Positions 12,201 through 20,392 of a stretch of DNA of 32,275 nt are shown here, in pieces. Made by a program: the position numbers and the translations under genes. The stretch is from positions 1 to 32,275 of the forward strand of contig JAPLQK010000089.1 of assembly GCA_026399735.1 (NCBI GenBank), given 5' to 3'. The notes under the pieces are model-generated. The model was not told the origin of the DNA, ran no database searches, and was given only the letters and a program-made list of their open reading frames with translations. The first letter of the stretch is position 1. The number at the start of each line of letters is the position of its first letter. Source of the DNA: Pseudomonadota bacterium. Its GTDB lineage: Bacteria; Pseudomonadota; Gammaproteobacteria; Burkholderiales; Gallionellaceae.

Positions 12201-12626
12201 TCAGGGTTGCGTTGTAACGGGTGCGATTGCCGGTGAGGGCGTAACGGCGCTGGCGGGTTGTTGCGCTTTCAATGCCTGATTCTGTTTGACCATCTGTCTG
12301 ATCTGCTCGCGTTTTTCAGGCGGTACCTGACTGAAGGCGCGATATTTTTCGCGCGCGGCCTGTCGCTGTTCGGGTGTCAGTTTGGACCATGCGGACAGGC
12401 GGCTCAGGAAACGGTGTTTCTCCTCAGCGTTGAGTTTTGGATAATGCTGTGCCAGACGCCTCAGGTTCTGTTGTTGTCGTTCGGGCAGGCTGTTCCATTG
12501 CTGATACACAGGCCACAGCGCCGCCTGTTCGGATGGCGGCAGCTTTTGCCACGGCTCGGAAGCGGCGTAGGACAGCGGGGCGATAAATGCGCAGCAAAGT
12601 GCAACAGCCGTGACCAGTTTACTCAT
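12201..12626 (-). CDS. DUF3106-like exported protein with five 18-residue repeats
   Basis: MSKLVTAVALCCAFIAPLSYA signal peptide, then LPPSEQAALWPVYQQWNS/LPERQQQNLRRLAQHYPK/LNAEEKHRFLSRLSAWSK/LTPEQRQAAREKYRAFSQ/VPPEKREQIRQMVKQNQA; overlaps the upstream gene by 8 nt. Confidence 0.8.
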   Translation of the reverse strand: MSKLVTAVALCCAFIAPLSYAASEPWQKLPPSEQAALWPVYQQWNSLPERQQQNLRRLAQHYPKLNAEEKHRFLSRLSAWSKLTPEQRQAAREKYRAFSQVPPEKREQIRQMVKQNQALKAQQPASAVTPSPAIAPVTTQP

Positions 12627-12951
12627 GCTGATCCACAAAGACTTCGATGGGCAATTCATCGGTCAGTATGTCGATATCCACAGGGACTTGCGAGTTTTGC
12701 CAGTATCCGAATGCCCCGACTGCGATAGCGGCGAGCAGAATGGTGGTTGCTACCCATTGTTGTGGCGTGTGTGGCATGTGCGCTCGATGGCCGATGGCGC
12801 TCAGTGAAAATACAGGCTCGGCAACCCGTTGTTTATGCAGCGCAAGAATGCGCGCCTCACGCAGTGAAGATAAAATTTGGGCGTCGAGCTGCTCCGAGCC
12901 TTGTGTGAGCAGTTTGGCGATCTGCTGGTGATCCAGTTTTTGGTTTTTCAT
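12619..12951 (-). CDS. DUF3619-like single-pass membrane protein (candidate anti-sigma factor)
   Basis: MKNQKLDHQQIAKLLTQGSEQLDAQILSSLREARILALHKQR... one TM segment WVATTILLAAIAVGAFGYW, short C-terminal tail; ATGA overlap with the sigma factor gene. Confidence 0.75.
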   Translation of the reverse strand: MKNQKLDHQQIAKLLTQGSEQLDAQILSSLREARILALHKQRVAEPVFSLSAIGHRAHMPHTPQQWVATTILLAAIAVGAFGYWQNSQVPVDIDILTDELPIEVFVDQHE

Positions 12952-13517
12952 GGTAGTTCTACTCCTGTTACTTCGAGTATTGCGGCTAGTGCGTGATTCG
13001 CTCTTGAACAGTGGGTTTTTACACTGCCCTCGGAGCAATTCATTGCTTTTGCAGTCTCAGCGGTATCCAATCCCTCCCAGTAACGCAGCAGGAAGGCTTC
13101 GCGTTGACGAGCCGGGAGATTACTTAATGCGTTTTCGATCAGTGCGATCGTTTGTTTTTGTTCAAATGCGGCATCCGGGATTGCGGGTGCGCTTTGATTG
13201 TCGCTGTCTTCAAGTACATCCAGCGGGTCGAATTCTTCTTCCGTGTGTTTCGGCTGGAATGCAGAAAAAAGTGTCGTCCAGTTCAAACGGACTTTCTGAC
13301 GGCGGCAATGGTCGCGTATGGTGTTTTGCAGAATGCGATGGAACAGCAGCGGCAGTTCTTCGGCCGGCTTGTCGCCATATTTTTCCGACAGCTTAAGCAT
13401 TGCGTCCTGGACTACATCCAGTGCCGTGTGACTGTCGTGCATGGCAAACACGGCGTGTTTGTAGGCGCGGCGTTCGATGCGACTAAGAAATTGGCCTAAT
13501 TCGGCTTGAGTTGCCAG
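12948..13517 (-). CDS. RNA polymerase sigma factor (sigma-70 regions 2 and 4), probable CTG start
   Basis: Region 2 ALDVVQDAMLKLSEKYGDKPAEELPLLFHRILQNTIRDHCRRQKVR; region 4 ALSNLPARQREAFLLRYWEGLDTAETAKAMNCSEGSVKTHCSRANHAL. From CTG at 13517: MATQAELGQFLSRIERRAYKHAVFAMHDS, with AAGGAG 6 nt upstream. Confidence 0.85.
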   Translation of the reverse strand: MATQAELGQFLSRIERRAYKHAVFAMHDSHTALDVVQDAMLKLSEKYGDKPAEELPLLFHRILQNTIRDHCRRQKVRLNWTTLFSAFQPKHTEEEFDPLDVLEDSDNQSAPAIPDAAFEQKQTIALIENALSNLPARQREAFLLRYWEGLDTAETAKAMNCSEGSVKTHCSRANHALAAILEVTGVELP

Positions 13518-13600
13518 TTGTTGCTCCTTGCATTAGGTTCAAATACTAGCAAATTATTCAACATTCTGCCATAGATCATGCGGATATACGCGGCAAATGG

Positions 13601-13629
13601 TTGACCAAAAGGCCGCTTGCTATTATCTT
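13601..13629 (+). promoter_or_regulatory. Candidate ilvB promoter
   Basis: TTGACC (13601-13606), 17-nt spacer, TATCTT (13624-13629). The ORF-track TTG start at 13601 coincides with this -35-like hexamer. Confidence 0.4.
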
Positions 13630-19618: not shown

Positions 19619-20269
19619 TTATGCGTCGAGATTCTTGCGACGACGTGCAGTGAAACCGATCAGTCCCAAACCGGTCAGCAGCAGGGCGCCGGTGGCAGGT
19701 TCAGGGACTGCGCTGCCGCCGGTGATAATATTGTCCACAGAAAAACCGTTGAATGTCGGGGATGCGCTTCCGCTGCTGGAAAAAGTGACTGAAGCAAGAT
19801 TGGTGAAAGCGCTGTTGAATAAATAACTTGTGAAATTCAGCGCGCCGGCCGCATTCGATGTCTTGTCGATCAGGAAGGATTGAGAGACCGATCCGCCGCC
19901 GCTCAACAGCGCAACAACATCGATCTGCGTCGGGATGTATTGGGGCGCGCCATATGGGTTAAAGTTAAAAGATCCTGCGCCGTCAAATCCAGTCAGGCTA
20001 AAGGCACCGCCGCCGGTCTGTGACATGGTCAGGGATGAAGGGCCATAGGGTGCAAGCACGAAATTGGTTCCGTTCACCGGGCAAGACCCGCTGCAAAATT
20101 GCGTGTTAACGATGAGCGAAGCTTGGCCGTTGAGAGAGAAATTAAAACCGCCTGAGGAAAAAGCGCCCATTGCATAGAGGGGAACATCTTCAAAGGTAAT
20201 GGTGTTCGCGTGACTTTGCACAGGCATGAATAAAACCAGCAATGCCAAGCCCAAACGGAAAAGTGACAT
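19619..20269 (-). CDS. PEP-CTERM sorting domain-containing secreted protein
   Basis: Signal peptide MSLFRLGLALLVLFMPVQSHA; C-terminus AVPEPATGALLLTGLGLIGFTARRRKNLDA (PEP motif, TM segment, Arg-rich tail). Start at 20269 supported by GGTGA upstream. Confidence 0.85.
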   Translation of the reverse strand: MSLFRLGLALLVLFMPVQSHANTITFEDVPLYAMGAFSSGGFNFSLNGQASLIVNTQFCSGSCPVNGTNFVLAPYGPSSLTMSQTGGGAFSLTGFDGAGSFNFNPYGAPQYIPTQIDVVALLSGGGSVSQSFLIDKTSNAAGALNFTSYLFNSAFTNLASVTFSSSGSASPTFNGFSVDNIITGGSAVPEPATGALLLTGLGLIGFTARRRKNLDA

Positions 20270-20392
20270 GAATTTCACCAAAAAATGACAGTTGAAAAAT
20301 TTCATTACGGACTGTAACTGAAATTTATTCGAAAGTAAAAAGCTAACAGGTTCATTGAGCAATAAATAATAGACTGACCGCATGCTTTATTT

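Follow-up and report, generated by a model that had tools for sequence, protein, structure and literature searches.

We analyzed a 32,275-nucleotide (nt) window (positions 1-32,275 of contig JAPLQK010000089.1, assembly GCA_026399735.1), which is part of a 2.38-Mb draft genome of a Gallionellaceae bacterium whose nearest named relatives are Gallionella, and focused on three overlapping minus-strand genes encoding a sigma factor, a DUF3619 protein and an exported DUF3106 protein. Within the sigma factor gene lies a predicted promoter, overlooked in the first-pass annotation of this DNA, which the sigma factor itself would read. The genes and the promoter are as follows.

12948-13517, minus strand: gene for an extracytoplasmic function (ECF)-type sigma factor of the PRK09047/SigAb family (NF006550), with a probable CTG start at 13517 and the stop codon at 12948-12950.
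12619-12951, minus strand: gene for a DUF3619 protein of 110 amino acids (aa), consisting of a cytoplasmic N-terminal part (predicted anti-sigma domain), one transmembrane (TM) segment and a periplasmic tail.
12694-12756, minus strand: the DUF3619 TM segment (approximately residues 66-86), placed by reading the sequence and followed by the periplasmic tail DIDILTDELPIEVFVD.
12201-12626, minus strand: gene for a DUF3106 protein of 141 aa, with a signal peptide and a helical periplasmic domain carrying LxPEQR-type repeats.
13082-13108, minus strand: predicted intragenic sigma-dependent promoter, composed of a GTCAAC -35 element (13103-13108), a 17-nt spacer and a CGTT -10 element (13082-13085), with transcription expected to start at about 13075.

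The overlaps of 4 nt (12948-12951) and 8 nt (12619-12626) between successive genes, described in the first-pass annotation, were confirmed, and all three genes lie at the place it gave. Its reading of the first product as a sigma-70 region 2 plus region 4 protein was likewise borne out by Pfam matches to Sigma70_r2 (28.5 bits) and Sigma70_r4_2 (63.9 bits) and by a score of 257.5 bits against NCBIfam NF006550/PRK09047 (curated cut-off 173). With PF04542 and PF08281/PF04545 above their cut-offs, region 3 absent and a length of about 190 aa, the protein has the domain composition of an ECF (group 4) sigma factor. No ATG, GTG or TTG codon is present near the expected 5' end of its open reading frame, and homology together with an AAGGAG box points to the CTG at 13515-13517 as the probable start. 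The second and third products matched PF12279 (DUF3619; 41.2 bits, cut-off 22.2) and PF11304 (DUF3106; 81.5 bits, cut-off 24.3), respectively.

The closest experimentally studied counterpart is the sigAb-aabA-aabB operon of Acinetobacter baumannii, in which AabA, AabB and the cytoplasmic domain of AabA each lower SigAb activity in reporter assays (Bacon et al. 2025, PMC12153292). SigAb recognizes promoters with a GTCAAC -35 element, 17 nt and a CGTT -10 element, is autoregulated and responds to copper, and was termed Acinetobacter-specific; neither DUF3619 nor DUF3106 is named in that paper (PMC12153292). A literature search found no paper naming either family. One A. baumannii locus in our set (L112) has three overlapping genes, for a sigma factor, a hypothetical protein of 106 aa and a DUF3106 protein, preceded by an exact GTCAAC-N17-CGTT motif; it was identified as sigAb-aabA-aabB by its promoter, gene order and gene sizes rather than by locus tag. 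SigAb and the window sigma factor fall into one NCBIfam equivalog (SigAb with 236.7 bits against NF006550, cut-off 173), and AabB scored above the DUF3106 cut-off (38.1 bits against PF11304, cut-off 24.3). AabA and DUF3619 are bridged by the corresponding protein of another locus (L278), which matched AabA at 7e-7 and the DUF3619 profile at 4e-6. The two operons further share the order of a sigma factor, a small single-TM protein and an exported DUF3106 protein, and the promoter GTCAAC-N16/17-CGTT. Judging from these sequence comparisons, the window trio is homologous to SigAb-AabA-AabB, with homology probable for the second gene, and the first-pass statement that no experimental characterization of either family was known no longer holds for homologues (PMC12153292).

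To describe the distribution of the trio, we refer below to betaproteobacterial (beta) loci and to those of the other Gammaproteobacteria (gamma). Among 200 Burkholderiales genomes, the NF006550 sigma factor was present in 147, DUF3619 in 144 and DUF3106 in 146, usually as single-copy, adjacent genes, and the 4-nt overlap between the sigma factor and DUF3619 genes recurred at 181 of 219 beta loci. The first-pass annotation had considered that common separation of the three genes would speak against a shared module. Instead, gene order and strand are the same at 222 of the 226 beta loci extracted, and among 321 other genomes of the class, 81 of the 85 carrying the sigma factor also carry DUF3106 (Fisher p 4e-59), an arrangement far above chance expectation. 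In a diverged form, the trio is present at all 60 gamma loci examined, with a small protein between the sigma factor and DUF3106 in every one; it is usually a diverged DUF3619 with nearly always one TM segment and a DLxFYxWL-like end of the tail, and hydropathy gave a single TM segment in 59 of 61 gamma DUF3619 homologues. On this sequence evidence, the trio is common to most beta- and many gammaproteobacteria.

Several loci depart from the usual arrangement. RDD-like multi-TM proteins are encoded downstream of the operon at three loci (L225, L226 and L227), the last of which has no DUF3106 at all but still has the sigma factor, the internal promoter and a single-TM protein of 106 aa. Second, weaker DUF3106-like proteins are encoded elsewhere in the window genome (L230, G000:C25) and in a relative (L231, G112:C21), and several gamma genomes (G206, G264, G467, G472, G514, G518 and others) carry two sigma factor and two DUF3106 copies, apparently as duplicated modules.

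The internal promoter was located by a genome scan for the SigAb motif, which matched the sigma factor gene itself; its predicted start lies upstream of the DUF3619 start codon (12951). An exact GTCAAC-N17-CGTT is embedded in the region 4 codons for R-Q-R-x-A-F-x-x-R-Y in 223 of 226 beta sigma factor genes and in none of 57 gamma genes; in beta loci, the median distance from the -10 element down to the DUF3619 start is 127 nt. The codons that the motif needs, CGT, CAA and CGT, stand at their positions in 224, 224 and 225 of the 226 genes; in the rest of these genes, their background shares are 13%, 38% and 13%. When synonymous constraint was calculated for 145 codon positions in 172 non-redundant genes, these codons ranked 1, 2 and 4 (2.97, 2.92 and 1.30 bits; median 0.18), and the codons between those of the -35 and -10 elements vary freely. 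Furthermore, permutation of synonymous codons within genes produced the motif in a mean of 4.9 and a maximum of 12 of the 172 genes, against 169 observed. Another codon outlier, the serine at +28 (AGC), was dismissed as a signal, being accounted for by the two-block serine code.

The raw counts are inflated by phylogenetic relatedness, against which stand the age of the gene judged from the tree, the variation of neighbouring synonymous sites and one independent event: in two of the three beta exceptions (L187 and L191, of one genus), which branch inside the beta tree, the motif is found upstream of the operon in exchange for the internal copy. Upstream is also its usual place outside the beta clade. 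GTCAAC-N16/17-CGTT occurs within 1 kb upstream of the sigma factor gene at 54 of 61 gamma loci (the 60 loci plus Acinetobacter), as opposed to 0.02 in shuffled sequences and 1 on the reverse strand. At about 17 gamma loci (L240-L291), 430-900 nt separate the motif from the sigma factor gene downstream, room enough for a long leader, a small RNA or an extra gene.

In the window and at most beta loci, an autoregulatory GTCAAC-N17-CGTT upstream of the sigma factor gene is absent, the motif being inside the gene instead. The upstream region carries two other predicted promoters.

13543-13553, minus strand: predicted housekeeping (sigma-70-type) extended -10 promoter of the operon, TTTGCTAGTAT, with the beta consensus TTTGnTAnnAT.
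13601-13629, plus strand: predicted divergent sigma-70-type promoter of the acetolactate synthase gene (ilvB), TTGACC-N17-TATCTT, whose -35 element reads GGTCAA on the minus strand.

An exact TTTGnTAnnAT is present in 122 of 225 beta upstream regions compared with 1.1 in shuffled sequences, and no -35 element is conserved with it; because the extended -10 is conserved without a -35, the beta operon promoter is predicted to be of the housekeeping type. Whereas the SigAb operon has an autoregulatory upstream promoter, the beta operon would be transcribed from a sigma-70-type extended -10, with the SigAb motif inside the sigma factor gene. The GGTCAA upstream of the operon was considered as a SigAb-type -35 element and rejected, since 91 aligned sites show the sigma-70-type -35 (CTTGACC) and -10 (TAnnnT) of ilvB. 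Taken together, we consider it probable that the beta coding sequence for the DNA-binding region doubles as a promoter read by the same sigma factor, so that the reading frame serves as a switch for the sigma factor's own inhibitor, and that, at the split from the remaining Gammaproteobacteria, this promoter moved in from upstream of the operon, whereby a self-activating operon became a purely self-limiting one.

The assignment of DUF3619 as a membrane anti-sigma factor and of DUF3106 as its periplasmic partner is well supported by homology to SigAb-AabA-AabB, in which AabA and AabB have anti-sigma activity. The first-pass proposal for DUF3619 also gains from three gamma loci (L277, L282 and L290), where the middle protein combines the same TM segment and tail with a zinc-finger anti-sigma domain (HxxxCxxC); that of L277 passes the Pfam zf-HC2 cut-off. 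Among the loci, this class I zinc-finger anti-sigma motif was found only in these three and is absent from the window DUF3619, and a search for further relatives of the zinc-finger protein returned only two genomes already in the set. The zinc finger in the DUF3619 slot would reflect either domain replacement or deep divergence. Moreover, DUF3619 and DUF3106 form one polypeptide in all 7 sampled genomes with a match, which belong to one genus (L189, L200, L203, L368-L374), a fusion in which DUF3106 would continue from the DUF3619 tail and hence lie in the periplasm. An AlphaFold model of this natural fusion was uninformative (predicted local distance difference test (pLDDT) score 41), and a search of the PDB with the DUF3619 sequence found no relative.

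In the Gallionellaceae, 12 genomes have the strict motif or a version one base off ahead of the gene for a small, Lys/Ala-rich exported protein, and 8 have it ahead of class I cytochrome c genes; the window's own genome is among both (G000:C61:53443 and G000:C71:56944, respectively). Across 100 genomes of the order, there were 51 strict motif sites as opposed to about 9 for a reversed-pattern control, and the motif recurred before the same kind of Lys/Ala-rich exported protein in six further families and before a DegP-like protease in one. These predicted targets differ from those of SigAb. The Lys/Ala-rich protein has no Pfam family match; its composition strikes us, as a lead only, as reminiscent of the acid-shock protein Asr. 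In the leader of its gene, a short, conserved inverted repeat, GACAC-n-GTGTC, follows the -10 element (L328, L330, L333, L358-L360 and L348).

We therefore propose, with a probability of roughly 83%, that the trio is a cell-envelope switch of the SigAb-AabA-AabB kind, composed of a sigma factor, a membrane anti-sigma factor and a periplasmic partner, in which the beta internal promoter drives DUF3619-DUF3106. The proposal draws on homology and synteny, on a promoter whose sequence and codons are fixed and whose place has shifted between clades, and on the recurrence of the motif before the same targets; binding of DUF3619 to the sigma factor, the signalling topology and transcription from the internal promoter are inferred. 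In such a switch, the beta sigma factor would be made constitutively, at a basal rate, from the housekeeping-type promoter, and the cytoplasmic segment of DUF3619 would hold it at the inner membrane, while the periplasmic tail would contact exported DUF3106, which may stabilize or gate the complex. An envelope signal would release the sigma factor to read GTCAAC-N17-CGTT promoters and transcribe exported protective proteins. The Lys/Ala-rich exported small protein and the class I cytochrome c are its other predicted targets in the window genome. In beta loci, the freed sigma factor would also transcribe DUF3619-DUF3106 from the region 4 codons of its own gene; active sigma factor would thus induce its own inhibitor and not itself.

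Several observations weigh against this proposal. The experimental support for anti-sigma activity, the promoter consensus and autoregulation comes solely from the Acinetobacter homologue, and the DUF3619 profile gave no direct hit to AabA (9.2 bits, E 0.24). In the window genome, the looser motif GTCAACN15-17CGTT is not enriched genome-wide (11 sites versus 48 in the control), so that only conserved motif sites carry weight. Two further points favour a different view, in which DUF3619 serves as a membrane anchor or as an activator, and regulation falls to DUF3106 or some other protein. Direct coupling analysis of 280 trios (effective number of sequences 237) yielded a sigma factor-DUF3619 signal not above that of the sigma factor-DUF3106 control and no region-specific signal, and AabB expressed alone also reduced SigAb activity in E. 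coli (PMC12153292), which a simple RseB-like role does not predict. However, the classical zinc-finger anti-sigma domain in this slot at three loci and the nearly universal ATGA overlap with the sigma factor gene make that view very unlikely.

It is also quite improbable that the module is as proposed while the fixed codons serve an RNA element, a binding site of another protein or an antisense promoter, the last suggested by the sigma-70 -35-like GTTGAC on the reverse strand. Antisense reads exceed sense reads at rpoR of Cupriavidus metallidurans (PMC11647585). The rpoR gene (Rmet_0910), which may encode this sigma factor, gives a thiol and copper phenotype when mutated together with rpoQ. 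The constraint, however, falls exactly on the experimentally defined SigAb -35 and -10 bases, at the same 17-nt spacing and nowhere between, and the same motif precedes the operon in gamma loci, as it does in those two beta lineages without the internal copy; an antisense sigma-70 promoter would moreover have no need of the CGTT end. As for DUF3106, the first-pass annotation had likened it to sensors of the CnrX/CpxP type, and a metal- or misfold-sensing protein of the CnrX/CpxP/Spy type is suggested by its all-helical character, an LTPEQR motif resembling LTxxQ, a weak sub-threshold Pfam match of the window protein to Metal_resist (E 0.0058) and the copper response of SigAb (PMC12153292). Against this, the confident model of the helical domain (pLDDT 85.9) gave no Foldseek match in the PDB at E<=0.001 and none to CnrX, CpxP or Spy; a PDB search with the sequence found no relative, and no His, Met or Cys is conserved above 50% in the family. 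We regard this identity as unlikely. With no PDB counterpart and no conserved metal ligands, the comparison holds for position and not for family: the role of periplasmic partner, which AabB homology and the fusion support, stands, and a CnrX/CpxP-type fold is not supported.

The trio is divergent from ilvB-ilvH-ilvC-pssA-leuA and convergent with lptF/lptG-like genes; the ilv and lpt names are ones we assigned by recognition. A protein with a PEP-CTERM sorting signal is encoded at 19622-20383, adjoining leuA.

Among known systems, the proposed wiring has a precedent in SigH-RshA of Corynebacterium glutamicum, in which the sigma factor gene is transcribed from housekeeping promoters and rshA from a sigma-dependent promoter inside the sigma factor gene (Busche et al. 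2012, PMC3489674), the control layout proposed here for the beta operon. However, SigH belongs to another ECF group, its anti-sigma factor is of another kind and linked to the thioredoxin system, and neither a periplasmic partner gene nor codon-level conservation over a large clade has been described or demonstrated for it (PMC3489674). CnrYXH of C. metallidurans likewise pairs a short single-pass anti-sigma factor with a helical periplasmic partner, and AabA was modelled to bind SigAb as CnrY binds CnrH (PMC12153292). It differs in gene order, the sigma factor gene being first in the window, and DUF3106 has no detectable sequence or fold relation to CnrX and no conserved metal ligands. RpoE-RseA-RseB of Escherichia coli shares the logic of a sigma factor, a membrane anti-sigma factor and a periplasmic partner, but DUF3619 is half the size of RseA, the promoter sequence is another one, and the window DUF3106 has no Pfam hit to the MucB/RseB domain.

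New in this work are the recognition of the module across the family, the finding that its promoter was relocated between two large clades, and the evidence that codon choice holds it fixed. DUF3619 and DUF3106, families of unknown function carried by most Betaproteobacteria, thereby gain a predicted function and a tested relative. A sigma factor that had been reported as Acinetobacter-specific proves to be a member of a widespread family sharing a single conserved promoter code, which would make its regulons predictable in hundreds of genomes. With three codons holding it unchanged in 223 of 226 genes, the predicted intragenic promoter would represent an unusually clean overlap of regulatory and protein-coding signals and an unusually clean example of a promoter relocating in evolution.
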